Shown in pieces: positions 1 to 62,716 of a stretch of DNA of 64,000 nucleotides. Both the position numbers and the translations under genes were made by a program. The notes beneath the pieces are model-generated. The model saw only the letters and a program-made list of their open reading frames with translations. It was not told the DNA's origin and ran no database searches. Position 1 is the first letter of the stretch; each line of letters opens with the position of its first letter. This DNA comes from Utricularia gibba (taxonomy: Eukaryota; Streptophyta; Magnoliopsida; Lamiales; Lentibulariaceae): NCBI GenBank assembly GCA_002189035.1, contig NEEC01000024.1, positions 434,001 to 498,000 of the forward strand, given 5' to 3'.

Positions 1-823
1 GGAATGCAACCCATCTAAGGAAATTCTGTGTGTAAGCACCTTTGTTATCGACTCCTATTTCGTACTTTATCAATCTTGGTATTTTCTATCTTGAGGCTTT
101 CAAGTAATTCCTCCGTAAAGGGAATGTATAACGCAATAGCAAAGCCCTAGCCAAGTCATGTAAGCCCAAGCAAACCATCTAAGTCTACACCCCCCGATGG
201 GCACAGCAAACCAACTCGGGGCTCACAGTATTTGATCCCCTAAACCCAGGCACCATGGAAAAGGGTAAGCCCTAGCACAATTTGGGCCCCGGTTTCGGTA
301 ACCACACGCGCGGGCCCTGAAAAAGCCCTTAAAGTACGAACTTTACTACCGAATCTCGAGACGGCAAGAGCACCCAAAGCAAATCTGCCCATGTTTTTAA
401 ACCATAGGGTTTCGGCCAGAAGAGGGGCCACTCGGATTGCGGAAGTTGTGCAACCCATGAGGGGTTTCGATCTGCTTCCCTAGCAGCAGTTCGGCTCATG
501 TAAGGAAAGGTTAAGACAAATAAAAGTTGAAAAGCCCAGCCAGACGGTTGGCAAAAAAACACAACTTTCAAATCGGGAAAGTTAATCAAAGTAAATACGA
601 AGGGGGAAAGTGTTCCCAAAACAAATAAAACCAAGTCCCGAAACTAGGGCAAATCCAAACTGTTCGAACCCTAAATCATGGGAAAAAATACTACTTCTAG
701 AAGAAAAAAATCTAAGATAGAGGATCGGTGGAGGGACGACATGTCCCTCTAGCCTTGCTCTCAGCTTGGCCTCATTCTACCACTGGATCCTAACCTGAAT
801 TAGCACTATTAGGCGCTCTCGAT

Positions 824-1900
824 CTACTCCAAACCTGAATTCCGGGGCTTCAAACACATCCAGCATATTCTCACTTCTTTGTCAAGGGGTAGTGATTGAT
901 AGCCAAAATGTCCGGCTAAATTGATGCCTCTACGGTAGAAGAGCAGGCCAATTAGATCCCCCACATAAATGTCAGAGAGCTCGGCAAAGCAAGCCGAGTC
1001 AACAAAGTTGTCGAGGAGCAAAAATGCGATCTTGAGCATGCTTCAACTCCAACTCGGTTTCTTCAAACCTAACTTTAGGAACCGGATCAAAGGGGATGGG
1101 GATTATCGAGTCAGAAGTAAGAGGTGCTGCCGAGTTAGAGGGAATGTTGTGTGGAGATTGCAAGAGATGTTGGTACTCTAACTCAAAACTAGGAGGAATG
1201 ATGAAATCAAGCCACTGTACATCTCGATTGCGACCGAGAATCCCACAGGCCGATAAGGAATCTCGTGAAAGCATCAAGGCCCGAGACTTGAACCTAACAA
1301 AACATTCACCAAGTCTGCGATATACATCCCTACGTGACTCATTCGAGGGATGGAATCGGCCAAATGGTTTAAATTTTAAAGAAGAAGGGGGCTTCACCGG
1401 AAAATTCCATCTGGCACCCAACGAAGGAGCAATCCAAATAAAGGAAGGCCACTAGTCATGGTGGGTATCAGGGGCTTGAGGGCAAAGTCAAGGTGATCTT
1501 CAAATCAGCGGAATTAAAAGTGAGAAAAACCATGCATCGCGCGTTTAGCCTTACGGACCGCAACCTTGAAGAGTTGGAAGGAGTCCACTAGGGTCATACC
1601 CGTGTCCATACCTGCCGAATAAAAAAGGAAGGTAGTGAAGCAGAAAATCGAGTTTGGGGATAGGCAATAAAGTGGAATGGCAAATATGTCCAGAAATTGG
1701 ATGATAAGAGGGTGAAGCGGAAAGCGAAGACCACTTTCCAGATAAGCTATGAGAATTGGGAGACTAAAATGGGGAAGGGGTCGTTCTCCCACACCCCAAG
1801 GTATTTGGCTGTCCTTGGCCTGGCTGACAACATAGTTATCAAGGATCGAGTACTTAGCCCGAATAGCAGGAATGTTCAACTCGCTAGACTTCCTACCCAT
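824..1900 (-). pseudogene. Tat-1 antisense gene (aORF), broken copy
   Basis: Minus-strand reading starts at 1900 with MGRKSSELNIP, shares IPWGVGE with the Tat-2 copy, and continues through LESGLRFPLHPLIIQFLD and FYSAGMDTGMTL to about 1514. A frame change leads into FGRFHPSNESRRDVYRR (about 1421-1300). The middle of the gene, including the basic motif and most of the coiled coil seen in the other copies, is missing: the text jumps from the FIIP region to KVRFEETELELKHAQDRI. The conserved C-terminal block LDNFVDSACFAELSDIYVGD is at about 1010-950. The domain resembles what I recall as the putative gypsy-type transposon family (Pfam Transposase_28), but no search was run. It lies opposite the inferred pol. 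Stops and frameshifts make it non-functional. Confidence 0.6.
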
Positions 1901-14119: not shown

Positions 14120-15515
14120 TCACTGCGCAGCAGTAGATGTAGTGGCAGTGCTCGGCGGCGGCGGAATCATCTCGAAACCCCACCGTCCTCGTCCTCCATC
14201 ACGTCATCATCTTCCTCCTCCTCATCTTCCTCGTCTGTCTCCTCGTTGGTGTTGGTGTTATTCAATCCCAGATCAACATTGTCCAAGGAATTTTTCTGTT
14301 CCGTCCGAGGCATCAGACTCGGTGCTGTCAAAATAGCATTCAGGCTGCTGGCATTGGGATTGAGAGATGATGTGAGGAGCTCGTTTCTAGCTCTGTCGTT
14401 GTATATAGTTTCTAGCTGGTGGAAGTATGGGCACGTCTTTGAATCTTCCGGCCGTTTCCTGTTACTCTCCTTCACCTTTTTGTAATACTTGTTGATGTTC
14501 TCCCATTTCTCCTTGCACCTTTTCGAGCTTCTGTTATATCCTAGTTTCGCCATCTCTGCAGAAATGTCCTCCCAAAGCGGCCCTTTTGGCCCGCTATCTT
14601 GGTACTTGAGATCCAGATTCGTTCTCAGTTTGATCAGTGCGAGCACTTCTGGTTTAGGCCACCGAGATGATGATGATGAACCACTCCCCGAACCCACATT
14701 TTTCTTCGAATTGCCCTCATCTCTTGCTGTCGGAGTTCGAATCTCGGGTGGTTGCTGCTGCATTGGCAGTGGTTGGTGTGGGGTTGGAACGAGGGTGCTT
14801 GCAGTGCTGGAAGCGGAAGGGGAAAACTTGGTGGTAACTTCAAGATGTTGTGCTGCGCATCAGCGGTTATCTTCTGCAGAAAAGCGACTACAGCAGAACT
14901 TTTAGCAGCGGCCATGGATCTCTCTTGGACCAGTAAATCGTGCTCGCGTTTCTTCCTCGCCATCTCTTGAACTCTCCATGCTTCTTCTCTGGCGATACGA
15001 TCTCTCTCTACTTTCTCGAGTGCTTCCAAAAATCTTCTGTGCATCTCCTCTTGCTTCTGAACCACATCTCTCATCAGCATCTGCAAGTAATCCTTCCACT
15101 TCCTCTTCCTCCCTCGTCTTTGATCCTCGTCGGAGGATGCCGAAGACAATGACTCCATCAGCAGGCTTGTCGAAAACTGGTAAGTGTGTGGTGAGACCGG
15201 AGGAGGCTGTTGGAAGGTAGTGGGATTGGATGAAGGTGGGAGTACATTCAAGGGTGTGGGACTAGTGGGCAAACTAGCCGCCGGCGGGTAGGGAGGTGGA
15301 TTGGAATCGTTTGTCGGCGGAGGCGGGCGAGGATGAAGGGATTTAGAGTATTGGGATTGTGCTCGAGAGCTTCCAATTGATCGAAGAATCTGTAGTTTTT
15401 GCCGTCGGGTTTGGATGCTCGGCCGTCCTTTGTCCTCTTGTGGTACTTGTACACGTTCTCAAACTTCTCTCTGCATTTTTTGGCACTTCGCTGAAACCCA
15501 AGCCCCGCCATTTTC
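14120..15515 (-). CDS. Trihelix gene exon 2 (three one-base deficits inside)
   Basis: Holds the rest of trihelix 1 (KMAGLGFQRSAKKCREKFEN), the basic and coiled-coil core (GRKRKWKDYLQMLMRDVVQK; LEALEKVERDRIAREEAW), trihelix 2 (RWPKPEVLALIKLRTNLDLK; CKEKWENINKYYKKVKESN) and the acidic tail. It is read in three frames before the tail. As written, the last frame stops at 14167. Adding one G at 14178-14181 instead continues as GFEMIPPPPSTATTS to a TGA at 14122-14120, which is more like family C-termini. Confidence 0.85.
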
Positions 15516-21661: not shown

Positions 21662-22830
21662 TGATAACACATTTTTAAGTGATTGAGTGCATGGAAAAGA
21701 TTCATATTGTACTACAAAAATTTAGTTTTACTACCTAGTTTTATATTTTTGCGCATAAGTACCGCAATTGTGTTATTTTAGTCTTAGTTGGGACTAAATC
21801 TACGATTTAGTCTCAACCTTCTAATAGTTTTACTCGAGCAATGCAGTGCAGGTCGCAACACGAATCCCAAGGAGCCGAATATGCACAGTGTAGTGGCAGA
21901 AGATGAGTCCAAATGTCTGAAAAGTGGTACACACAAAATCTGAGGAGGAAAAAGGGAGATTTTGGACAAAAAGGGAGGAAAGATGAGAGAGAAGGCAAAT
22001 CTCCCCTTGGAGACTCACGAACACATTTTCTGGGGAGAAGGTTTTCTGGGAAGGAAGAAGAAGGAAGACAAATAGGAACGAAGCTAAAGTTCAAGATTAT
22101 TTTCTATCTTCGAAGAATATTACTCCTAGCTAAGACTAGCTAGTGACGTTTTTCAGTTTTTGTTGACACTTCACATTACTTGCTTGTTTGATTTCTGGTA
22201 TTTGACTGTGAAATGAGCACACTGTGGGTGATGTTTTCTTTTCCACTTTCGTTTACCTTAAGCATGAGTGGCTAAGTACTTTGGGGGGTGCCTTGGGGTA
22301 AAAAGAGGAGAAACATGTTAATCAACCTTTAGATCTAAACAGCCATGAGTCACGTCACTTCCTTAACAAATTAGGATAGATCCAGGAGGGGGAAGTAGTG
22401 AAACCCAACTTAACAACCCTAATTAGAGGTAGACCAAAGATTAGGGGGAAAAACAAGAATCCGGGTAGACCTAGATCTTGTGAGTTAGTTGTATGATTTG
22501 TGGTTTGTGTGAGTTTTTTTAGTAATGAGCATACATTCCCTAGGAGTCCCAAGGCATCACCCATTCCATTCCAGAAACAACCGAACTCTAGAACTTATTA
22601 CTTTTCTTTACTGTATTTCGTTTTAGTTCTGCTTTAGTCCTAGCTAAGATCAATTTTACCAACGTGACATTGATTCCTTGCATTGACCTTCACATAGCAA
22701 GCACCTAGCTCCTTGTGTTCGACCCTAGTCCACTATGCTCATAATTGTTTTATGCTTGAATGTGTATTAGGTTATAAATTTATTTGATAGGAAAGTTTAT
22801 ATTTACGACGTGTGAATTTTTCGTTTATCA
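21662..22830 (+). mobile_element. E2 solo LTR (family E)
   Basis: Begins TGATAACACA and ends TCGTTTATCA. Perfect TSD GATAT (21657-21661 and 22831-22835). The palindrome at 21787-21817 has 14-bp arms with one G/T-type mismatch, 125 nt from the LTR start. No internal region. It lies 81 bp from the oppositely oriented E3. Confidence 0.92.
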
Positions 22831-22911
22831 GATATCAAATGCTACAACCCATGCTAACCTTGTATGATAATGTAAGATAAAAGGCCTTATAAAGGTATCC
22901 TCATTGGTTAA

Positions 22912-24079
22912 TGATAAACAAAAAATATTTGCAACATCGTTAAATTACAAATTTCTCTTATCAAATAAATTTATAACCTAATTCATATCAAATCATATGA
23001 AAAATATAAATATAGTGGACTAGGGTGGAACACAAGGAGTTAGGTACTTGCTATGTGAAAATCAATGCATTCAATCAGAATTACACTGATAGATTTGGTC
23101 TTAATTAGGAGTAAGGTAAAACTATGATGGAATATAGTAAAGAAAAATAATAAGTTTTAGAATTCAATTATTTATAAGATGAAATCGGTGATGTGTTGGG
23201 ACTCATAAGAGATGTATGCTTATCACTAAACACACTCACACAAACCATAAATCAAACAATTAACAAACAAAATCTAGGTCTACTCGGACTGTTATTTATC
23301 CCCTAATCTTTGGTCTACCTTTAATTAGGGTTGTTAAGATGAGTTTCACTATTTCCTCCTCCTAGATCTATCCTAGTTTGTTAAGGAAGTGGCGTAACTT
23401 ATGGTTAATAAAATCTAAAGATTGATTAGCATATTTCTCCCCTTTTCACCTCAAGGCACCCCTAAGTACTTAGCCACTCATAACAAGGGAAAGAAAAGCA
23501 TCTTCATAACACATCTTAAGCAACATTCTGTTCTCAAGGTTAAACAACAATATAAAATGCATAACAGAACATAAACAATAAATTGTTCACATAAGGAAAA
23601 CTAAAACTAGTCTCAACTTGGAATATTGCTCATCAAGAATGAAAGAAAATCTTCAAAGGGAAATTTGTTCTTTTGGATCTTCGTTCCCTTCCTTCTTCCC
23701 CCAGAAATCTTCTCCAGAAAGATGCGTTGTTTTTCCCCCATGGGGGAGATCTCTTTTTTCTCTCTCCATCTTGTCTCTTTTTTTGTCCAAAATCCTCCTT
23801 TTTCCCCTCCTTGGATTTGTATTCTTTTTTTTCAGACTTTTGCCTCATCCTCTACCACTATTTTATTCATATTTGGCTCCTTGAGATTTATGTTGCCAAC
23901 ATGTGCTGCATTGCTCAAAGAAAACTATTAGAATTAAGATTGGGACTAAATCAACTAGGAATAAAAAGCACAACTATGATACTATTTGAAAAAACATAGA
24001 AATAGACAATGAAACGTAATTTTTGTAGCACAATATGAGTTATTTCCCTGTACACAATCACTCAAAATATGTGTCATCA
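22912..24079 (-). mobile_element. E3 solo LTR (family E, inverted)
   Basis: The plus strand begins TGATAAACA and ends TGTGTCATCA. Perfect TSD GTTAA (22907-22911 and 24080-24084). One palindrome arm survives (TTGGGACTAAATC near 23939); the other has decayed. With E2 it makes a head-to-head inverted pair of about 1.17-kb arms. Confidence 0.92.
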
Positions 24080-30987: not shown

Positions 30988-32510
30988 ACATTTGAAATAT
31001 TTATTTCTGGGTGAAAATGAGACTTTACCTTTTATTATCTCAAGTACACTAACCTTGGAAAAGGAGGAAAAACTCAGGAGTGTGCTCCAGGAGCACAAAC
31101 AGGCAATTGGGTTGACATTGGCGAATATCAAAGGAATAAGCCCCTCCATATGCACTCATCGCATCTATTTGGAGGAGGGAACAAAGCCAATTTGCCAACC
31201 CCAGAGGAGATTGAATCCACCTATGATTGAAGTGGTCAAGAAGGAGATTCTGAAGTTATTGGCCGCAGGTATAATCTATCCTATTTCTGATTGTGAGTGG
31301 GTTAGCCCTGTGCAGGTTGTCCCGAAGAAAACATGTATCACAGTCATGGCCAATGACCAAGGGTAACTCATGCCTACCAGAGTGCAAAATGGCTGGCAAA
31401 TGTGCGTAGATTACCGAAAATTGAATGCTGCCACCAAGAAAGACCACTACCCACTTCCATTCATTGACCAAATGTTGGAAAGACTTGCTGGAAGGAGTCA
31501 TTATTGCTGCTTGGATGGATACTCCGGTTTCCATCAAATACCCGTGGCTCTTGAAGATCAATCTAAGGTTGTTTTCGTTTGCCCTTTTGAAACTTTTGCT
31601 TACCATAAAATGCCTTTTGGACTTTGCAATGCACCAACAACATTTCAGAGATGCATGGTTAGTATTTTTTCTGAATATGTTGAGAATATTATTGAGGTAT
31701 TTATGGATGACTTTACGGTTTATGGAAATAGCTTTGATGAATGTCTTGCTAATTTATCATTGATTCTGAAACGTTGTGTAGAGACTAACCTTGTTTTGAA
31801 TTATGAGAAATGTCATTTCATGATAGAACAAGGTATCATTTTAGGACATGTGTTCCCAAAAGGGAATTGATGTTGACAAGGCCAAAATTGAGGTAATCCA
31901 AAAATTACCTTATCCTACTTGTGTGAGAGATGTACGTTCTTTCCTTGGACATGCTGGATTTTATCGTAGGTTTATTCAAGATTTTTCGAAAATTGCATCT
32001 CCTCTATGTGCCTTATTGCATAAGGATGTTGAGTTTCATTTTGATAAAAAATGAATGATTGCTTTTGATGTTTTGAAAGAGAAGCTTGTTTCAGCCCCCA
32101 TTATTCTGGCTCCAAATTGGAGTCTACCCTTTGAACTAATGTGTGATACAAGTGATGTAGCTCTAGGTGCGGTTTTGGGACAAAAGGTGGATAAACAATC
32201 CCATGTTATCCACTATGCGTCCAAGTGCCTTGATGATGCCCAAAAGAGCTACACCACTACAGAAAAGGAGCTGCTGAACATTGTATTTGCCTTGGAGAAA
32301 TTTCGATCTTATTTGCTAGGAGCCAAAGTCATAGTCTATTCGGACCATGCCGCCTTGAGATATCTCCTCACCAAGAAGGATTCGAAGCCTAGACTCATTA
32401 GATGGATCTTATTGCTTCAAGAGTTTGATTTGGAGATCAAGGGCAAGAAAGGATGCGAGAATTTAGTTGCAGACCATCTCAGCCGCATCACTTCTAGAGA
32501 AAAATCAAGT
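30986..32510 (+). pseudogene. Athila-1 reverse transcriptase and RNase H
   Basis: Three consecutive + frames: LFLGENETLPFIIS... to 31366 (stop TAA after VMANDQG), 31370-31870 with the RT palm (KMPFGLCNAPTTFQR and active-site box FMDDF), and 31848-32054 plus 32055-32540 with [62 protein letters not shown] and NLVADHLSR. The order matches Ty3/gypsy RT-RNase H. Breaks: stop at 31366, frameshift near 31862, stop at 32054. Tat-2 interrupts it at 32511. Confidence 0.85.
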
Positions 32511-32900
32511 TGTTATGGCACAAATCGGTATCCGGCGTAAGACCGATTTGAGGTGATAAGTGCGGTCGGAATTGCCACACTTAGTCGCATTCTTCACGGT
32601 TGGTTCGATTGAAATAAGAGTGAGCAAGGATTTTTTACGTGGAAACCGCCGGATAATTTCTTGTAAATAAGCGCCCTTCGCGTCAGTTCTTTCCTTTGCC
32701 CTCTCTGTTGCCTTCAAGAGTTTTGTGCCCTCCGTGCTCCATCACACTCGTCCGCCGCTCGATCGTCGCGATATCCATCGGAAATCTCCAATTTTCCAAT
32801 TATCATTCGGTTCTTCGTCTTTTCCGTTCGGTCCTCTGGGATTTTTGAATGGTCCGGTCCCCCTTTGTCATTCTAAGTCCTTCCCCTTCCTGACTCCTGC
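32511..32900 (-). repeat. Tat-2 left LTR (3' LTR)
   Basis: The plus strand begins TGTTATGGCACAAATCGG and includes ATTTTTTACGTGGAAACCGCC (about 32628), matching copies A, B and C and, in reverse complement, Tat-1. The right limit is uncertain; the antisense gene ATG is at 32931. Confidence 0.6.
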
Positions 32901-32930
32901 CTCGTTCTAGGGTTTTGGGCTTCTTTGAAA

Positions 32931-35100
32931 ATGGGTAGGAGATCTAGTAAACTGAACATCCCCTCCCTTTGCATTCAGTACTCGATCCCTGATGAGTACC
33001 AGCTTTCTCATGCTCGGGATACTGAAATCCCTTGGGGGGTAGGTGAGGACCCCTGCCTCCGTTCAGTCTCCCAATTCCACTTGCCTATTTTGAAAGCGGT
33101 TTACGCTTCCCTCTTCACCCTTTAATAGTCCGTTTTCTCTATACCTTTGCAATTCCGATTTACTGTCTCGCCCCGAATTCCATATTCTGCTTTACTACTT
33201 TCCTTTTCTATTCGGCCGGTATGGATCCGGCTATGACTCTTGAAGACTTCTGTCATCTCTTCAAGAAAGCCGTTCGTAAAGCCAAGTCCCCGATGGATGG
33301 CCGATCTCACTTTCAATTCCGTCGATTCGAAGATAACCCCAACTTTGTTGTTAAAGCCCTTGATACCCACCATGATTGGTGGTCTTCTTTCTTTTGGATA
33401 GCTCCCCTTTGGGTTTTCGGTGGAACTTCCCAGTCGATCCCCCAACTCCTTTCAGGATCAAGATCTTGGGTGCGTATCGGTCTTCTTCTGAATCTCGCGA
33501 AGTCCTTTATGAGAGGCTTAGTACAAGCTCAGTTCGGTATGACTCTCGTGCCTTGATGTTCTCGGGTGAGTCGTTGAAAAGATCAGGTATTATCGGTCGT
33601 TCTCGATACCTCCATTGGCGCGATATCATTCCTTTCGACGGCACCGATTTGAGAAGCCTTCCTCTTAGCCCCTCTTCATCCTTCCCTCTTGTTTCGGCTT
33701 CACCTTCGATCCCCCACCTGTTCAAACCGGGGCCCCCAAGAAAAAGAAGAGGGTTAAGGTAGTTGCACACAAAGCCTCAAAGAGGCAAAGAGGTAGTCGG
33801 GTTCAGCTTTCCCGAGTCTCAGAATCGGCACTATGCCTTATTGCTTTTCCTACTTTCGTTTTCAGCTGAAGAGATGCCTCAAAGAAGTTCTCTAGAAGAT
33901 TCGATGATGGCGCGGTTCTCTGCCGAGATGTAGAGGATGTAGGAACCCGAGGAGCCCTCCCCTGCACCAATTTGTCTCCTATTTAACAGTTACTGCGAAT
34001 TCTCGATTATAACCTCTTTTCGGTTTTTCTTTCAGGCTGATACGTTTGGAGCTCAGCTTGACACCGCTAATCCTTCCTCGGGGGAAGATCAAGTAGTAGA
34101 AGTCTCCGAGATCCGGGAGTTGACTCCCCGTCCTTCAGCCGGGAAAGGGAAAGAGAAACTTCCTCCATCACCAGATCTCAGCGATACTCTCATTCCTAAT
34201 GCAAGATTCTTTTCGGCTGGTGCTTCAACATCGGCTCCCCCAATCGGGTTACAGAGGGATTCTGCCCTCGTAGAAGTAAGGGACAACCCGATGCTTCCTC
34301 TATCCTCAATTTCAGCTGAACTAAGGGGAATCCTGGATGGAGCTATGTCTAGTACCTCAGGTGTTCAGCCGGAGACGGTACTTGAAGGGATCTGGCAGGT
34401 ACGTATCCCGTTTCCTCTTCTAAATTCTAAGTAGTCTGTCCTTGACTTGGAATATTCTTTCAGGCTCTCACTCTTGGGTGGGAAACGGTTAGAGAGATTG
34501 GCTCTCAATCGGAGGCAGTTTCTCGTCTTCAAGCCCAAGTTGTGGCTCAGAAAGCCCAGATAAAGTTGTTGGAGGAGGAGGGGAGTTCGCTGAAAACCGT
34601 TTTAGGGAGAACTAAACGCAGCCGCATGGAGGAAGAACTGCGGAATGTGATCGAGGAAATGGGAAAGGCGGTTGACGACGCTAAATCGGAGAGAGAGGGC
34701 TTCAAAGTCCGATTTGAAGAGGCAGAAGCAGAGTTAGAGCATGCCAGGGGCCGCATTTCAGCATTGGAGGCCGAATTACTTGATCGACAAGCATCTCGGC
34801 AAGGTCTTCTGGATGACTTTGTCAACTCGGCCTGTTTTGCCAAACTCTCCGATATCTACGCAGGCGATTTAATCGGCTTACTTCTATACCGTCAGAGACG
34901 ACAGTTCAGCCAGGAATTTGGGCTTTAAATCATGGATCCGCGCTTCGACAGGATAAACCCCTTGACGAAGGATGAGAACATGCTTGATGTTATCGTGGAG
35001 ACTTTCCAGGCCCCGGAGTTCGGGTTTGAAGCTGATCGGGAGCGGCTGATTGCGCTAATCCGGGCGAGGATAGGGCGAGAGAATGACGCCAAGTTAAAGG
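32931..35100 (+). pseudogene. Tat-2 antisense gene (aORF), longest copy
   Basis: Begins MGRRSSKLNIP at 32931, then IPWGVGE and, after frame changes, MDPAMTLEDFCHLFKKAVRK (33221) and FRIKILGAYRSSSESREV (about 33450). PKKKKRVKV (about 33738) is an SV40-like nuclear-localisation motif. Splice signals on + fit introns 33793-33865 and 34399-34463; a third intron probably ends at 34035. Then come a Ser/Pro region (TPRPSAGKGKEKLPPSP), a coiled coil (34480-34790: MEEELRNVIEEMGKAVDDAK) and the conserved block LDDFVNSACFAKLSDIYAGD (about 34808) with LIGLLLYRQ. Premature stops (near 33933 and at 34926) and frameshifts break it. The function is unknown; it resembles gypsy-associated antisense/extra ORFs of Tat-lineage elements. 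It converges with the minus-strand pol. Confidence 0.7.
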
Positions 35101-35575
35101 CCAGGATGGAACGACATACCGGTTCCTCTACTAATCCTCCCATTAACTTGATGTGTTTTCCCCCTGTTGTGGTGCTTCTCGAACATTTTTTATATCCCGA
35201 TTCGGGATTTCCTTCTGATTTGCTCCATTTTTTGCGCATCATCCCTGCCTTTGATGATATCACATTTCGGGGGAAGCCCCGAGTTGGTTTATTATGTCTA
35301 TCACGTGTTTAGGCTTGGAAAGTTCGCCTATGCTTTTGTGATCCGAGGGTGGGTGTCTTTTCGCCAACCCTTTGGTTGGGCTTTTTTGATTTTTGTTTGC
35401 CTTAGTATTTCTTCATGCGTGCTGAACCGCTGCTAAGGAAGTAGGTCGGAAACCCTCATGGGTTGAGCAACTTCCCCAATCCGGAAGGGCCCTCTTCTGG
35501 CCGAACCCCATTGTTTTGAACATGGGTGGATTTGCTTTGGGTGCACTTGTCGTCTCGAGATTTTGACAGTAAAGT
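35101..35575. other. Tat-2 spacer between aORF and pol
   Basis: Contains GCTGAACCGCT, CCTCATGGGTTGAGCAACTT and CTTCTGGCCGAACCCCA, conserved with 51.5-51.66 kb and, inverted, with 240-520. An ORF runs through it to 35312 but has no recognisable domain. Confidence 0.55.
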
Positions 35576-36420
35576 CAATACTTAAGGGTTATAGACATTT
35601 TGTGGTTGAATGCTTCGGAGCACCAAATCTCCCTCAGAGAATTCTCTTGGAGACACCGACTTGTTATATCGCTTCTCCGTTCTTCTTCGATGAGCCCCTA
35701 GTCGGCTATAGACATTTTGTCGTTTTTCTTCCAACAGCTCCAACTCCAACTTTCGCAGGTCGGGATTCTCTTCTTCGTTGTAATGCTCTACTCGATAGCT
35801 TTTCAGGGTTAGTTCGATAGGGCATATGGCTTCCGAACCGTAAACCAATAAGAATGGGGATTCTTCCGTGGTGGTTCGAGGGGTGGTGCGATATGACCAC
35901 AGTACTTCATCCAAGCGATCTGCCCATGATCCTCCAAAATCTTCAAGCTTAGTTTTCATACCCAACCTGAGCGTTCGATTCGTTACCTCTGTGAGACCAT
36001 TGCTCTGTGGGTGATACACCGAGGTGAAGTTGTGCTTGACCGTATATTTATCCAGGAATGCCTCCATTTTTCCTCCAACGAATTGGGTTCCATTATCAGT
36101 CACTAGTTCTTGAGGGATCCCGAATCGGATGAAGATATTTCTCTACAGAAATCGAACAACGGTCTCCTTTGATATTTTTTCCACGGCTTCAGCCTCCACC
36201 CATTTGGAGAAATATTCGACCGCCACGATGACAAATTTCCTTTGGCCTGAGGTTTGGGGGAACGACCCCATAATATCCACTCCCCATCGATCAAATGGGC
36301 ACGAGAATGGAAGAGAAGTCAGGTTATGTATTGGCTTTCTTGGTGTACTGGCATGGTATTGGCATACTTTGCATTTCTTTACCATTTCGGTAATATCCTG
36401 CTCCACAGTTGACCAATAAT
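35576..36420 (-). pseudogene. Tat-2 integrase
   Basis: Reads on minus: zinc-region end KKCKVCQYHA, then WGVDIMGSFP (first catalytic Asp), VAVEYFSKWVEAEAVEKISK, TDNGTQFVGG (second Asp), HPQSNGLTEV (catalytic Glu), SYRTTPRTTTEESPFLLVYG and the C-terminal domain FSEGDLVLRS. It is split into two frames near 36103-36143. The phrases are those of Tat/Ogre-lineage integrases. The Zn-binding His pair and pol upstream of it are incomplete. Confidence 0.8.
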
Positions 36421-37485: not shown

Positions 37486-38370
37486 ATTTCTTGTTGATTT
37501 TCAGCTTGATTCTTAATTGATTGCGCCATGAATGTCTTCAAAATTTCTTCCAACGAATTTCCAGAATTCCCTCTAGCATTTCCTTGATTTGAGGCTTGAA
37601 ATGGCTGCTGGTTCTGTTGATTTTGCCTTCGAAATGGAGGCGCCTGATAAGATCTTTACTCCTGAAAATTTTGCTGCCCCATGGTTGAGCTTTCCCCTTT
37701 GTAAGAATTTTCGTTGTTGCTCCAATAAAAATTTGGATGGTCGCTCCAGCTTTGGTTGTAAGTGTTAGAATAAGGGTCATATTTCTTTCTTTGCTGGGGC
37801 TCCAAGTATCCCATAGCCTTGACATGCTCTTCTTCAAATAAATCAGGACATTTATCCGCGACATGCCCTGTCTTGTGACAGTTTCCGCACAGCATGTTCT
37901 TAGCCTGGAATAAGAACAGCTCCTTCATCATATCTAACATAGCAGCAACATTTTTCGTGAGTTCATTCTCTGAAACCCTGGGCTTGCTCTCCACTTCATA
38001 CACCCTCTTGTTTGAGGTTTGCTTCCTGATAATATGTCTTGAATGCTCAGCCAACTCCTCAAGCAAGGAAAGTGCTTTGGTTGGTGTCTTCCTTAGAAAT
38101 CCTCCCGCCGCCGAATCTACCATTGCTCGGTCAGTGCATAACAATCCATCATAGAAGTTTTTGACCAAGGCATTGGTCTGAAAACCATGATGTGGGCAGG
38201 ATCCCAAAAGAGGGTTGAATCTCTCCCAATATTCGTGCAATGATTCTCCACTCATTTGTTCAACATCACTGATTTCTTTTCTAATTTCTTCAGCCTTAGA
38301 AGCTGGAAAATACTTGCTCAAAAACACTTTCTTCATTCCAGCCCAATCGGTTATGCTTCCAGGCCTTAGT
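37486..38370 (-). pseudogene. Family-D (Athila-like) gag, second piece
   Basis: Reads on minus from 38370: SITDWAGMKKVFLSKYFPAS (gag domain), FLRKTPTKALSLLEELAEHS, the zinc knuckle CGNCHKTGHVADKC (C-X2-C-X4-H-X4-C), then EPQQRKKYDPYSNTYNQSW. It continues the gag that begins at 40163 and repeats about 275 bp of it. Its left edge joins Athila-1 pol text near 37485 and its right edge joins Tat protease/RT near 38372. Confidence 0.75.
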
Positions 38371-38376
38371 GAATCC

Positions 38377-38950
38377 ACTTGGAGTATTGGATCTCGTTCA
38401 CATAACCAGCTTCCAAGAGCTCCCTTGTTTTTTCCTTGATAATTCGGCACTTTTCCTCTGAGAAATGCCGTTGCTTCTGCCGAACCGGTTTTTCTCCTGG
38501 GTAGGTATCAATGTGATGCTCGGCAACAGATCGATCAATGCCTACAAAGTCTACAGCAGTCCAGGCAAAGATATCAGCGTTCCTAATCAAAAGTTCAAGT
38601 AACCTCTTCTCAAATTCCGTGTCCCGATTGGCACCAATGCGGGTGGCTTTCTGCACATCTTCTGGTACTAGTCGTACCGACTTGTGCCCTACTGGTTCCA
38701 TTGCTTGTCTAGGGGGTTCTCGGGGCTCCTTTTCTACCATCATCACTCTCGGTTTTTTCATGCAAGGATCTCGACAGGAAGATAGATAAAAGGACCGGGC
38801 GGTGGTTGGTCGATACCAATCCTTTTCAAATGCACAGTGGAGGGTAACATACCGAATTTGTTGATGCCGGGTCGCCCGAGGATGATGTTGTACGAGACCT
38901 CTGAATCCAGGATTAAGAATTCTAACCTCTCGGTTCGGTTCCGCCCTACC
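38377..38950 (-). pseudogene. Displaced Tat protease and RT N-terminus
   Basis: On minus: EFLILDSEVSYN and ILGRPGINKFGMLPSTVHL (protease C-terminal part), then LLIRNADIFAWTAVDFVGID, HHIDTYPGEKPVRQKQR and GYVNEIQYSKW (RT N-terminus). This is the segment missing from Tat-2 between its gag and RT pieces, now 1.5 kb outside the TSD-flanked insertion. It may come from Tat-2 or from another Tat copy. Confidence 0.7.
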
Positions 38951-38954
38951 AGAA

Positions 38955-39448
38955 GGAGAATTTGATCAATGCAGATTTCCAGCACTACCAGAAGGAGAAA
39001 TTGAGGAGTGACAGCCTGAGCTTCATCTGGGACGATCCCTATCTCTGGAAAATTGGTTCTGACCAGATTATAAGGAGATGCATCCCCCAAGATGAAGTGC
39101 ACTCTATTCTTTCACATTGTCATGAGCTACCTTGCGGTGGACACTTTGGTGCAAAAGTTACTGCAAAGAAAGTCATGGAGGCTGGATTTTATTGGCCTAC
39201 CATATTCAAGGATGCCTACCTTCATTGCAAGGCATGCCCAAATTGTCAAAGAGGAGGAAATTTGGGATAAAAGGATCAAATGCCCCTTCAACCCATTATC
39301 ATGTGTGAGATCTTTGATGCATGGGGCATTGACTTCATGGGACCATTTCCGCCTTCTCAAGGGAAGCTCTACATACTTCTTGCTGTTGATTATGTTTCTA
39401 AATGGGTGTAAGCCATTGCTTGTGAAAAGGATGATCCCAAAACCGTGG
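38955..39448 (+). pseudogene. Athila-1 integrase N-terminal half
   Basis: The + frame from about 38962 reads FIWDDPYLWKIGSDQIIRRC, then the zinc-binding region HCHELPCGGHFG ... CKACPNCQR, a stop at 39268-39270, and in the next stretch [20 protein letters not shown] (first catalytic Asp) and VDYVSKWV, stop, AIACEKDDPKTV. The second Asp and the Glu of the DDE triad are missing because family-D DNA begins at about 39449. Confidence 0.8.
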
Positions 39449-40163
39449 GTAATTTCTTCCTTAGAAATCCTCCCGCCGCCAAATCTACCATTGCTCGGTC
39501 AGTGCATAACAATCCATCATAGAAGTATTTGACCAAGGCATTGGTCTGAAAACCATAGTGTGGGCAAGATCCCAAAAGATGGTTGAATCTCTCCCAAAAT
39601 TCGTGCAATGATTCTCCACTCATTTGTTCAACATCACTGATTTCGTTTCTAATTTCTTTAGCCTTGGAAGCTGGAAAATACTTGCTCAAAAACACTTTCT
39701 TCATTCCAGCCCAATCGGTTATGCTTCCAGACCTTAGTGAGTTGAACCATGTTTTAGCTCCTCCTTCCAAAGTGAACTGGAAGGCTCTCAAACAAATGGA
39801 ATCTTCAGTCATTCCTGCTCCCTTGAATGAAGTGCATACCGCTGTTGCATTGTCTAAATGCTCATGGGGGTTCTCTCCAATTTTTCCATAGAACATTGGC
39901 AAAAAATTTATCATCGCCGGCTTCAGCTCATTTGCTCCATCCTCTGGAAATCTGATGCACAGACCCCTGTAAGTATGATCAGCAGCATCCAATTCGTTCA
40001 AGGTCTTCACAGGTTCAGCCATTCTGAAATTTCTGTTAGTCTCGGGTGAGAGTTGTCTCAATCTACTCGCTTCTCTAACTCTTACCGTGTTCTTGCTGAT
40101 AGCTCTCTCAATTTCTGGAAGGAAAGTGAGATTACCTGCACCAGAAGAACGTAAATGCATCAA
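39449..40163 (-). pseudogene. Family-D (Athila-like) gag, N-terminal piece
   Basis: ATG at 40163 or the next codon (MMHLRSS), then NRNFRMAEPVKTLNELDAAD, FYGKIGENPHEHLDNATAVC, DSICLRAFQFTLEGGAKTWF and SITDWAGMKKVFLSKYFPAS. This is a typical retrotransposon gag domain. At the C-terminal junction (about 39456) it abuts Athila-1 integrase in the opposite orientation. The leader and PBS lie immediately upstream (right), so this is the start of a family-D element (D2). Confidence 0.8.
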
Positions 40164-49979: not shown

Positions 49980-51328
49980 CTATCTCTTATCCAGTCGTCC
50001 CTATTCCCACCGACCCAATATTTGAGCCTTCTTTTGAACCACCGATTCCCAAGAAAAAGAAAAGGGTTAAGGTTTGTGCCCACAAGCCTTCCAAAAAAGA
50101 AAAAGGTATTCGGCTCCTTTTTTCGTCTAGTGGTCATCTTCTTTTATTTTAACTATTTCCTTATTTTGGCTTACAGTCGACAATATGGCAAGAAGAAGCG
50201 GACTGGAGGCATCCATTGCTGCACGTTTTTCTGTAGAGATGCACCGGGTTTAAGGGCCAGCACCGGATACAACCCCTTCTCCATTGGTTAGTTTTTCACT
50301 TGTATTGTTGTTGATTTTCCTATTCTAACCCTTTCCACGAATCCCCCTTTTTTGGGCCAACTCTACGAGGGTTCAATCCAACAATATTAACTATCTCTCG
50401 GAAGGGGATAGGGGGATTCGGATTTTTGATGGTTGGGAGAAGGTTTTGCTTTCATCGGAAATTCTCAAAGGCCCGATTCATGGAGTGCCTTTTACTTCAA
50501 CCACTCCTTCCACATCAAGGCCTTGAATAGGTGCGGTAGAGGGTGCCCCGCACGCGGCCATCCCGATTCCTGAGGAACTAGGTCCGGTCCTTGTCGAGGT
50601 CACCCCAAATTTCTCTAGTGTACCACCAAACAGAGTAGTTAACGGGATTTGGGAGGTATGGTCCCTTTCGTTCTAGTACTGAACATATTTAGTGTCTGAG
50701 CTAGTTTATGTTCAACTTTTAGGGTTTCGTCCTTGGCTGGAGTTTGCTCAAAGAAGTTGGCTCTCTTTCTGAGAGGGTCTCCAAGCTCCAAGCTCTAGTC
50801 GCAGTGCAAGATGCTAAGATCAATCTTATGGTGGATGAGCAACGTTCCCTGAGGGTAACTTTGGGTAGGCGAACTTGGCATGAGGCCGATCTGGAGAAGG
50901 TAGTGGAGGAGATGGGAAAAGCCATCGATGATGCCACTTCTGAGAAGGAGGCCTTTAAGGTCAAATTTTGGGAGGCCAACTCAAAGCTATCGCACGCGAG
51001 GGATTGCATTTCTGCCCTAGAGGCTAAACTGTGTGATTAGGAAGCTTCTCGTCAAAGGATCTTGGATGATTTCATTAGCTCCTCTTGCTTCTCGGAGCTT
51101 TCCGATATTTATGCTGGTGACCTTATCGGCATACTTCTATACCGACAGATGCGTCAGATCTCCCGTGAGTTCGGGCTTTCCATAACAGATCCTTGTTTTG
51201 CCGATATCAACTCCTTGAAGAAGGATGAGAATATGTGGGAGGTCATCTTGGATGTGTTTGACACTCTGAAGTTCGGATTTGGAAGGGACATATTGGTCCC
51301 TCAACCAATCCCCTCCCTTGAACTTTAA
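49980..51328 (+). pseudogene. Tat-3 antisense gene (aORF), N-terminus missing
   Basis: Enters at about 49980 after Athila gag-start text. PKKKKRVKV at 50048-50074 matches the Tat-2 copy. The intron 50106-50176 (G/GTATTC...CTTACAG) joins KKEK-VDNMARRSGLEA, aligning with the spliced Tat-2 copy. The intron 50656-50722 (GAG/GTATGG...TTTTAG) joins NGIWE-GFVLGWSLLKEVGS, parallel to GIWQ-ALTLGWETVREIGS in Tat-2. A coiled coil follows at 50744-51036 (EKVVEEMGKAIDDATSEKEA), then a stop (51038-51040) and the conserved block LDDFISSSCFSELSDIYAGD (about 51061). The frame ends at 51328. Stops at 50250-50252 and 51038-51040 break it. Function unknown. Confidence 0.7.
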
Positions 51329-59214: not shown

Positions 59215-60363
59215 ATGTCTTCCACCGTGAATTTGAGATCCATTCTAGAGTCCAACAAGTTGGTTGGCTCGAATTTTACTGATTGGCACCGCAATTTGAG
59301 AATTGTTCTCAAGGCGGAGAAGATTGCTTACATCCTTGAGCAAGATGTTCCTGCACAACCCAGGGCTAATGCAGCTGAAGATGTTTGGCGTGCATGTCAG
59401 AAGTATCTAGATGATGCTGAGCTTGTCTCCTGTATCATGCCTTCTTCGATGGCCCCTGATCTCCAAAAACAGCATGAGGCGATGACTTGCCAACAGATGA
59501 TAACACACCTCAAGGATCTATTTGGTGAGCACTCATGACTTGAAAGGTTCAAGACATCAAAGATGTTCAATTGTCGTTTGGCAGAAGGAAGTTCTGCTGC
59601 TGATCATGCGACATTGATGTTGAGTTACATTGAGAAGTTGTCCACTCTTGTTTTTGTGTTGGATAAGGACTTGAGTATTGACTTAATCCTTACCTCACTA
59701 CCTGATAGCTACTCACAATTTGTGATGAACTATCAGATGAACAAGATGGATCAAACTGTTCTTGAATTGATTCAGTTACTCAAGTCTGTTGAGACAACTA
59801 TCATAAAGGAACAAAAGAATGTCATGCTTGTCTCTTCAAGGAAAAAGGTTTCCAAGAAGAAGAGTCAAGACAAGAAACTCAAAGCTAAAAGTGAGATCAA
59901 GAAGAAGAAGCCTGTTGAAAAACCGGCTAAGGGTGAATGCTTTCATTGTGGGAAATCTGGTCATTGGAAGAGAAACTGCAAAGCCTATCTAGAGTCAATC
60001 AAGGGCAAGAAGCAGAATGAGAATTCAGCTTCAGGTATACACATGATTGAGATTAATACTACTATCAAGAATGGTTCTTGGGTGTTAGATTCTGGTTGTG
60101 GTGCTCACATTTGCACTAACATGCAGGACCTAATGAGTAGTAGAATCTTGAAGAAAGGCGATGTTGACCTACGAGTTGGGAATGGTGCACGAGTTGCTGC
60201 CATGGCAGTTGGGACTTGCCACATCGCCCTACCTTCTGGATTATCTCTTGAATTAGATTCTGTTTATTGTGTTCCCTCATTGTCTAAGAACATCGTCTCT
60301 ATTTCTTGTTTGGACAAGATTGCTTTTGAGTTTTATATAAAGAACAATTGTTGTTCCATATGA
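59215..60363 (+). pseudogene. Copia-J gag and protease
   Basis: ATG at 59215 (MSSTVNLRSILESNKLVG), chosen because gag homology starts here; the frame opens at 59179. A stop at 59536-59538 interrupts gag after LKDLFGEHS, and text continues in frame as LERFKTSKMFNCRLAEG. There is a Lys-rich segment (about 59840-59930), the zinc knuckle CFHCGKSGHWKRNC (C-X2-C-X4-H-X4-C), then the protease with active site LDSGCGAHIC (DSG). Another stop is at 60361-60363. Confidence 0.85.
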
Positions 60364-60499
60364 AGAGGGAGTGTGCATTATGGTACTGCTACAATAGTAA
60401 ACGGAATATATGTTTTGGATCAGCATGATTCAGAACAAATTAACATGTGCATAAAAAGGACAAGGATTGACAACATCTTGAATTCTTACCTCTAACATT

Positions 60500-61377
60500 T
60501 TCGTTTAGGCCATATAAACAAGAAGCGTGTTGAGTACTTATATCGATTGGGATATTTGGACTCAGAAGATTTTGAATCTTATGAAACATGCGAATCTTGT
60601 TTATTGGGAAAAATGACAAAGCAACCTTTTCTAGGAAAAGGAGCAAGAGCTGAAAACTTATTGGATTTAATACATTCTGATGTATGCGGTCCAATGAGCA
60701 TCACTACTAGAGGGGGTTTCTCGTATTTCATCACTTTTACAGATGACCATTCAAGATATGGACGCATCTACTTGATGAAACGAAAATCTGAAGCCTTTGA
60801 AAAGTTCAAAGAGTTTCGGATGGAGGTCGAGAACCAGCTTGAGTGTTCCATCAAGAAACTTCGATCAGATCGTGGTGGCGAATACTTGAGTAATGAATTC
60901 AAGAATCATCTGAAGGACAATGGTATTGTCTCAGAAAGAACTCCTCCTGATACACTTGAGCACAATGGTGTTTCTGAGAGGAGAAATCGAACTTTGCTTG
61001 ACATGGTTCGATCCATGATGAGTTTTTCGGAACTACCAAAGTCCATGTGGGGATATGCTTTAGAGGCAGTGGCTCATGTTTTGAACAAAGCCCCATCGAA
61101 ATCGATTGAAACCACTCCTTATGAGATTTGGACTGGTAGAAAACCGAGTTTCTCCTACCTCAAAGCTTGGGAATGCCCTGCTTATGTAAGAAGGTTGAAG
61201 TCAGATAAGTTGGAGAACAAATCTGACAAGTGTCTCTTTCTGGGATATCCACAAGAAACCATGGGATACTACTTCTATAATCCTCAAGAGGGAAAGGTTT
61301 TCATCTCGAGGAATGCTGTCTTTTTGGAGAAAGAGTTTCTCCTCAAAGAAGCAAGTGGGAGTCGTTTTGAACTTTAG
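60500..61377 (+). pseudogene. Copia-J integrase
   Basis: HFRLGHINKKRVEYL and CESCLLGKMTKQPF form the HHCC zinc-binding region. The catalytic triad is readable: HSDVCGPM (Asp), RSDRGGEYLS (Asp) and HNGVSERRNR (Glu). It continues MWGYALEAVAHVLNKAPSKS and CLFLGYP. It stops at 61375-61377 (TAG), and RT text follows in the same frame. Confidence 0.85.
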
Positions 61378-62716
61378 GAGATGTTTGAGAACGAGCCAGT
61401 GACACCTATAGAGACGCCAGTGGGTGACTCAAAAGGTAATCTAGGCTCACCATCTCGAAATTGTGTCCCAGAAGCTTGTAATGTACCAGTGAGCAATCAA
61501 CCTGAGCAATCTGACTTGCCAAATGTACCAAGCACGTTTTCTGCCAGAAGATCAGTCCGAAAACGTAACCCTATTGTGAGATATGGTTTCATTGTTGATG
61601 CCGAAGGCATAGGAGACCTCATATTAGATGAGGAACCTCGGACTTATGACGAAGCAATCAATAGTGCTGAGTCAAGTAAATGGCTTGTTGCCATGAGGGC
61701 AGAAATGGATTCCATGTATGAGAATAATGTTTGGACATTGGTCAATGCTCCAGAGGGAGTAAATCCTATTGGATGCAAATGGGTATTCAAAAGGAAAACT
61801 GACATGGATGAAAATACATCTACCAGTAAGGCACAACTTGTGGCAAAAGGATATCGTCAGAAACAAGGTGTTGATTCTGATGTAACCTTGTTGCCTATGG
61901 CTATGCTGAAGTCCATTCGATTTTTGCTTGCCATTGCTGCTCATTTTGATTATGAGATGTGGCAGATGGATATGAGAGGAAGTGTGCATGACACAACCTG
62001 AAGGTTTTACACAAGATCGTAGTAAAGTGTGTAAACTGAACAAATCCATCTATGGGCTAAAGCAAGCTTCAAGAAGTTGGAACATCAAATTTGATGAGAC
62101 AATCAAAGAGTTTGGTTTCTCTCAAAAGGAAGATGAACCTTGTGTATACAAGAAGGTAGATGGCTTGGCAATCGTATTTCTCATACTATATGTGGATGAC
62201 ATATTAGTAATGGGAAATGATGTTGCAACAATGCAATCGGTAAAAATCTGGTTATCCAAGAGCTTTTCAATGAAAGATCTTGGAGATGCGGCTTATATAT
62301 TGGGCATAAAGATCTATAGAGATAGATCAAGGAGATCGATTGGATTATCACAATCAACCTACATCGATAAAGTGTTAAAGAGGTTTAACATGGTTGATTC
62401 CAAAAGAGGTTTATTGGCCATGACACACAAGGCACTTTCAAAAGTGATGTGCCCCAAAATAGAAGAAGATAGGGATTATATGGCTCGAATTCCACATGCT
62501 TCTCCTATTAGGTCAACAATGTATACCACGCTGTGTACTAGACCAGATGTGTCATATGCTTTAAGTGTTGCAAGCAGATATCAGTTGAACTCTAGAATGG
62601 ATCATTGGACTGCACTCAAGAGCATTCTTAAGTACTTAAGAAGGACTAAAGACATGTTCCTTATTTATGGTGGTCAAGATCTCGAAATGGGAGAATATGT
62701 TTCCAATCTCATTTGA
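61378..62716 (+). pseudogene. Copia-J reverse transcriptase, RNase H truncated
   Basis: A linker (61381-61620) then WLVAMRAEMDSMYENNVWTL, GCKWVFKRKTD, QLVAKGYRQKQGVD, and MDM where the conserved 'KTAFLNGxL' block should follow. About ten codons are missing there and the frame shifts to VCMTQPEGF (61980). Then come KSIYGLKQASRSWN, the active site YVDDILVMGND, FSMKDLGDAAYILGIKI and YLRRTKDMFLIYGG. It stops at 62714-62716 in early RNase H; only a scrap (FTLNGGAV) remains downstream. Confidence 0.85.

Follow-up and report, generated by a model that had tools for sequence, protein, structure and literature searches.

The antisense gene at positions 32931-35148 on the plus strand of the window (the whole stretch of 64,000 nucleotides of Utricularia gibba DNA that was analysed) is probably the TRP28 aORF, an antisense accessory gene, of a Retand-type Ty3/gypsy retrotransposon. 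We take it to be a genuine protein-coding gene whose transcript is most likely spliced. We consider it probable that the gene works as follows. Transcription would start from a TATA-type promoter that, as its conservation indicates, lies between the 3′ LTR and the ATG, and would run towards pol. The pre-mRNA would lose three short coding introns and probably one 5′-UTR intron. The product would carry TRP28 at its N-terminus, then a basic NLS-like stretch, a linker, and a coiled coil, and towards its C-terminus a conserved block. It would most likely be nuclear, dimerise, and act on the element's own DNA or transcription. The full-length genomic RNA would hold the introns in reverse orientation and could not splice them, so that the gene would be copied together with its introns in each retrotransposition.

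Three copies of the gene, here called A, B, and C, are present in the window. Copy B is the gene at 32931-35148, and the integrase and gag of the same element lie on the minus strand:

820 to 1900, minus strand: copy A, comprising exon 1 with TRP28 and the C-terminal block, the middle being deleted (alignment, Pfam match).
35585 to 36139, minus strand: integrase part of the element's pol (rve, E = 1.9e-6, under the Pfam cut-off with 28.5 of 32.6 bits; in-frame selection was seen).
37659 to 40160, minus strand: gag region of copy B's element, with two gag-domain stretches (Retrotrans_gag, E = 7.1e-17 and 2.5e-21).
49980 to 51328, plus strand: copy C, from the end of exon 1 with the NLS-like motif through exon 4 (alignment).

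The first-pass annotation had placed the gene opposite pol and next to the 3′ LTR in all three copies. An integrase on the opposite strand was indeed found beside copy B, and among the 43 copies examined it was on the strand opposite to the antisense gene in all 36 with an integrase found downstream; an LTR next to the gene was demonstrated for copy B only. None of the three window copies is intact. Copy A is missing the middle of the gene, including the NLS-like motif, the introns, and the first part of exon 4, and is therefore uninformative on introns. Copy C is without most of exon 1, and in its intron 2 the donor GT is kept and the aligned acceptor is GG. In copy B, exon 1 is frameshifted, stops occur in the reading frame within exon 2 and beyond exon 4, the intron-2 donor is lost, and the LTR/promoter region has a deletion.

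Several other features of the window were recorded. In the gag region of the element, a 295-bp stretch is doubled (38078-38372 and 39446-39740, 95% identical). An ORF with a Myb/SANT-like DNA-binding domain (14170-14856, minus strand, E = 5.6e-27) is possibly a host or DNA-transposon gene. A long inverted repeat at 22285-23462, fold-back or MITE-like, has 348-bp arms that are 78% complementary and 163 nt apart, and a related arm is present elsewhere in the window. At 59542-62716 (plus strand), the start of a Copia-type gag/pol (Retrotran_gag_2, Pol_BBD) is followed by more long ORFs.

With exon 4 of copy B as the query, 149 matches were obtained in the 100-Mb assembly of the window, where a single copy can yield several matches. 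The alignment of 43 copies was composed of A, B, and C and 40 fetched copies from the best-scoring, nearly full-length of the 149 matches, distant and short copies being under-represented. Nine clusters were defined by exon-4 identity among 41 of the 43 copies (without A and L038). Two copies, L014 and L018, showed 99.5% identity over 4.6 kb and are located on contigs C451 and C41. They are probably one insertion on duplicate contigs, and the 43 copies may therefore represent 42 independent ones and the six LTR pairs described below five.

The alignment gave the following structure for the gene, with coordinates of copy B:

32931 to 33792, plus strand: exon 1, from the start codon to intron 1, frameshifted in copy B; ATG in 35 of 43 copies, in-frame selection.
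33793 to 33865, plus strand: intron 1, phase 1; GT in 39 and AG in 38 of 43 copies.
33866 to 33969, plus strand: exon 2; in-frame dN/dS 0.16 in deep pairs.
33970 to 34035, plus strand: intron 2, phase 0, donor AT in copy B; GT in 34 and AG in 30 of 43 copies.
34036 to 34398, plus strand: exon 3; in-frame dN/dS 0.28 in deep pairs.
34399 to 34463, plus strand: intron 3, phase 0; GT in 41 and AG in 37 of 43 copies.
34464 to 34925, plus strand: exon 4, with the coiled coil and the conserved C-terminal block; in-frame dN/dS 0.09 in deep pairs, 149 genomic matches.
34929 to 35148, plus strand: remainder of exon 4 beyond the in-frame TAA of copy B; the first stop follows 82 codons on in 15 of 43 copies.

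Two introns had been named in the first-pass annotation, 33793-33865 with 50106-50176 as its counterpart in copy C and 34399-34463 with 50656-50722. Sequence and alignment agreed that these start with GT, end with AG, and join parallel frames. A third coding intron at 33970-34035 had been overlooked, making three and not two. Splice sites were conserved across the 43-copy alignment. The donor GT was found in at least one copy of each cluster for all three introns, and the acceptor AG in nine clusters for intron 1, in seven for intron 2 (not in those of L031/L040 and copy C), and in eight for intron 3 (not in that of L042). All six coding splice sites were intact together in 21 of the 43 copies. 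Sites that were not GT or AG corresponded to gaps (three donors and three acceptors in intron 1, four and four in intron 2, one and one in intron 3) or to changed bases; that the intron-2 acceptor is AG in just 30 copies is a point against the model. Between clusters, the intron bodies shared 50-58% identity compared to 60-71% for the exons, and the T content was 42-45% in the introns versus 23-24% in exons 3 and 4. The intron length was not a multiple of three in 33 of 37, 20 of 27, and 30 of 36 copies with GT..AG for introns 1, 2, and 3, respectively. Based on the conservation of the splice sites, the frames, and selection, we infer that three short T-rich coding introns are removed from the pre-mRNA.

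The apparent introns might instead be non-coding spacers between separate antisense ORFs with their own starts, and the survey in PMC11963269 counts 104 separate antisense ORFs with a length of 600 bp or more. Near the start of exon 2, an in-frame ATG was present in 39 of 43 copies, and translation could begin internally there. However, an in-frame ATG within the first five codons was found in just 3 of 43 copies for exon 3 and in 1 of 43 for exon 4, and the GT and AG were kept while the intron bodies diverged, with matching phases. We consider separate ORFs very improbable, if slightly less so in view of the exon-2 ATG.

Selection on the predicted coding sequence was determined by Nei-Gojobori pair counts, in which codons with gaps or stops, segments of less than 25 codons, and saturated pairs were skipped, and the pairwise values are not independent of one another. 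The first-pass annotation had proposed dN/dS along the aORF as a check, and the values in the genomic copies were far below 1. Of the refuting conditions named there, neither a dN/dS near 1 nor a lack of conserved splice sites in other copies was seen. In deep pairs (dS >0.6), in-frame dN/dS was 0.18, 0.24, and 0.31 for three parts of exon 1 and 0.19 for the exon-4 extension. Over all seven exon segments it was 0.09-0.31, compared to 0.44-0.96 in the two alternative forward frames, as far as these could be measured. Young pairs (dS <0.25) showed higher values of 0.30-0.61, as expected because copies decay after insertion. The third codon position was the most variable one in each exon segment, and the introns were without codon-position periodicity. 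Reverse frames were rich in stops, with 238 stops in 6256 codons of exon 4 for the reverse frame with coinciding third positions; dN/dS was also low in that frame, as expected because its third positions coincide. A chance ORF was ruled out by the frame-specific selection, the reverse-frame controls, and the 43-copy alignment.

Of 51 indels relative to copy B in exon 4, 43 had a length that was a multiple of three, as had 42 of 85 in exon 3. The corresponding numbers were 16 of 92 and 24 of 102 for two parts of exon 1, 2 of 11 for exon 2, and 14 of 75 for the exon-4 extension, and 0 of 10, 4 of 67, and 8 of 61 for introns 1, 2, and 3. Decay is thus apparent in exon 1, exon 2, and the exon-4 extension, and that the indels of exon 1 are mostly not multiples of three indicates that many copies have decayed. 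For a comparison with integrase, the 22 of 36 copies with at least 120 aligned residues of integrase were used; in these same copies, dN/dS was 0.10 for exon 4 and 0.09 for integrase. The similar strength of selection argues that the protein is needed for the spread of the elements.

The same data bear on the possibility that the antisense RNA itself is the regulator, as a source of dsRNA or siRNA, and the protein is incidental. This reading was raised in PMC7264820 for a similar gene, as antisense transcripts can pair with genomic RNA as dsRNA. Against it, all exons are under strong purifying selection that is specific to the reading frame, in exon 4 matching that on integrase, and the introns are positioned such that the frame continues. 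An RNA regulator is therefore very improbable.

The region upstream of the ATG was compared in 30 of the 43 copies, after A, B, C, and ten loci with a rearranged, missing, or badly aligned upstream region had been removed by eye. In copy B it contains the following features:

32511 to 32653, no strand assigned: remnant of the element's 3′ LTR, beginning with TG and much deleted in copy B; homology to the upstream regions of other copies starts at 32510/32511.
32662 to 32669, plus strand: degenerate TATA-type box of the antisense gene, TGTAAATA in copy B, where it was placed by reading; present in 29 of 30 other copies.
32800 to 32910, plus strand: likely 5′-UTR intron with TT at the donor position in copy B; donor GT in 29 of 30 others, acceptor placement uncertain, position in copy B assigned by reading.

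The sequence between the inner LTR end and the ATG contained TATAAA in 23, TATTAA in 4, TATAAG in 2, and TAAAAA in one of the 30 copies. The antisense gene thus likely has a TATA-type promoter outside the LTR, between the 3′ LTR and the ATG, and starts within the LTR may occur as well. A donor-like GT site was found 104-150 nt beyond the TATA-type box in 29 of 30 copies, and because of this conserved site a 5′-UTR intron is likely; its acceptor had no unique position across families. The conserved promoter-like block upstream of the ATG (32662-32930) also includes, besides the TATA-like box, an E2F-like motif, TTTCCCGC, in 16 of 30 copies and ACGTCA in 14 of 30, compared to a shuffled expectation per copy of 0.09 and 0.19, respectively. 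These two motifs are just a lead, since the copies are related. At 31370-32537 (plus strand), the reverse transcriptase and RNase H of another element abut the LTR remnant at 32510, a junction produced by an insertion or a deletion.

The predicted product has about 680 residues, as estimated from the exon sums, and the following parts were recognised in it:

33083 to 33265, plus strand: Transposase_28 (TRP28, PF04195) domain; hmmscan E = 1.8e-6, 28.5 bits with a cut-off of 26.2.
33735 to 33792, plus strand: basic NLS-like stretch PKKKKRVKV...KASKRQR; core [KR][KR][KR]V in 35 of 40 scorable copies.
34632 to 34757, plus strand: coiled coil, best heptad window, 92% hydrophobic at a/d positions; none of 300 shuffles was equal.
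34806 to 34892, plus strand: C-terminal block LLDDFVNSACFAKLSDIYAGDLIGLLLYR, common to copies A, B, and C.

A search with the Transposase_28 model, suggested in the first-pass annotation, detected the domain slightly above the Pfam cut-off in copy B and in copy A (26.5 bits with a cut-off of 26.2). The PKKKKRVKV motif reported for two copies was located at 33735-33761 in B and near 50048 in C, and the block LDDF..S.CF..LSDIY.GDLIG.L.YR was common to all three copies, with LDNF as the variant in copy A. The basic stretch at the end of exon 1 resembles a classical nuclear localisation signal; a looser K[KR]x[KR] anywhere within it occurred in 39 of 40 scorable copies, some of them frame-shifted. 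The heptad pattern of exon 4 was strong in B and in C (0 of 300 shuffles equally good). A fold model of TRP28 for two window sequences was mostly helical and, with a mean pLDDT of 43.7 and a pTM of 0.30, too poor for a fold search. Sequence searches against solved structures yielded no usable match for TRP28 (best E 0.6) or for exon 4. A search of viral_contigs and genome_contigs with a single-protein query, which reaches close relatives only, confirmed no exon-4 relatives, and a Pfam scan of eight exon pieces returned no bZIP family match.

The conserved NLS-like motif and the coiled-coil pattern would also suit a cofactor of nuclear import or integration, acting with the pre-integration complex and not as a regulator of transcription, and import of this complex is among the options discussed in PMC7264820. 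An antisense gene with a promoter of its own would suit a regulator no less well, and we regard such a cofactor as rather unlikely and favour a nuclear protein acting on the DNA or transcription of the element.

Both LTRs were compared in six copies and showed JC distances of 0.043-0.103, and matching 5-bp flanks were readable in four of these LTR pairs (L016, L010, L046, and L013). All six coding splice sites are intact in L016, L010, and L046; in L013, the introns are present and the intron-2 donor is changed. As these intron-bearing copies have LTR pairs and target duplications, their introns passed unspliced through the RNA intermediate. Plausibly, genomic RNA carries the antisense introns reversed, which makes them unspliceable, and they are hence retained. 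The reporter assays described in PMC12786077 use the opposite layout, with an intron placed for splicing from the element's RNA. Exon-exon patterns for junctions 3 and 1 revealed no intron-less spliced retrocopy, which would have been proof of splicing, in the assembly; when applied to the joined exon ends of the copies themselves, these patterns detect 38 of 41 and 33 of 39, respectively, and losses in diverged copies could escape them. The junction 3 pattern had four hits, all of which were rejected, two still reading the unspliced donor and two being without a recognisable aORF, and the junction 1 pattern had none.

Some copies are mosaics. Compared to copy B, L034, L044, and L046 showed 86-89% identity in exons 1-2 and 90-93% in intron 1, the first part of exon 1 of L044 being disrupted (61%). 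From intron 2 to exon 4 these three copies are nearer to L045/L047, with 75-88% identity in exon 3 compared to 53-56% to copy B, and past exon 4 they revert to copy B (84-89%). L043 switches sooner, before or within exon 2. In L034, L043, L044, and L046, the coiled-coil half (exons 3-4) thus resembles a different family; one switch lies at or near intron 2, or earlier in the case of L043, and the other follows exon 4. This pattern suggests template switching between families inside the antisense gene.

The conserved intron places and the likely own promoter resemble a host gene, and the gene could be a captured passenger whose introns stem from its host. It was found in nine diverged clusters under long-term selection; furthermore, PMC11963269 reports that 97% of Retand clusters have antisense ORFs with TRP28, and similar gene sequences outside elements are lacking according to the available part of PMC7264820. 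We consider such a capture improbable, an ancient one at the origin of the lineage being the form in which it could still hold.

Extending the reading of a single spliced gene beyond this genome, the separate Retand antisense ORFs of flowering plants could be exons of one ancient, spliced, and separately promoted gene, with an orientation that shields its introns from splicing of the genomic RNA and with a coiled-coil half that families exchange through recombination at introns or close to them. We judge this wider proposal to be evenly balanced between true and false. If the splicing is real, ORF-based annotation of abundant plant elements took exons for separate ORFs and concealed the full protein, and the gene is a natural example of a retroelement keeping introns in an antisense gene. 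With the junctions defined exactly, plant RNA data that already exist allow a direct test of antisense splicing.

Known systems resemble the gene to different degrees. HBZ of HTLV-1 (PMC3185765) is an analogy, being antisense, near the 3′ LTR, spliced, and nuclear, with a leucine zipper (coiled coil); HBZ starts in the 3′ LTR and is a bZIP protein, whereas here the TATA-like box is outside the LTR, no bZIP was found, and no homology is claimed. The Ogre intron (PMC6317226) is on the sense strand and is a different case. ORF2 of PvRetro13 of common bean (cited in PMC7264820), compared by description only, is likewise an antisense aORF and has SMC similarity. Gene23 of maize Grande (Gomez-Orte et al. 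2013, cited in PMC7264820 and PMC11963269) is also antisense and between pol and the 3′ LTR. GENE23 is reported in PMC7264820 to be nuclear and to have its own promoter, upstream of the gene; here there are a conserved TATA-like box and an NLS-like core only, and the two are likened by description and not by sequence.

The closest match is the TRP28 aORF of Retand elements. According to PMC11963269 (Vicient 2025), antisense TRP28 ORFs located between pol and the 3′ LTR are a hallmark of Retand elements, and the gene shares their position, orientation, and domain. The LTR of about 528 bp in other copies and the length of about 10.0 kb from LTR to LTR in L016 are within the Retand range given there (LTR 315-1,194 bp, internal region 7.4-12.9 kb). 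Some published antisense ORFs score as Smc-like, as a coiled coil might. The TRP28 ORFs are predicted in PMC11963269 to bind DNA, with a suggested regulatory role. A regulator acting in the nucleus had thus been proposed before, there and in PMC7264820, which also called for a look at antisense and spliced transcripts. The difference is that PMC11963269 describes ORFs and not exons, the word "intron" being absent from its available text, whereas we find apparently one spliced gene with three coding introns. Introns in Retand antisense genes are not described in the available parts of these two papers nor among the literature matches listed. Compared to what is available of both, the exon-intron structure and the union of the TRP28 and coiled-coil parts in one gene seem to be new. 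The gene family is known and its intron-split structure looks under-described; what the window contributes is an apparent organisation in several exons, conservation of the promoter block, and gene parts exchanged among families.
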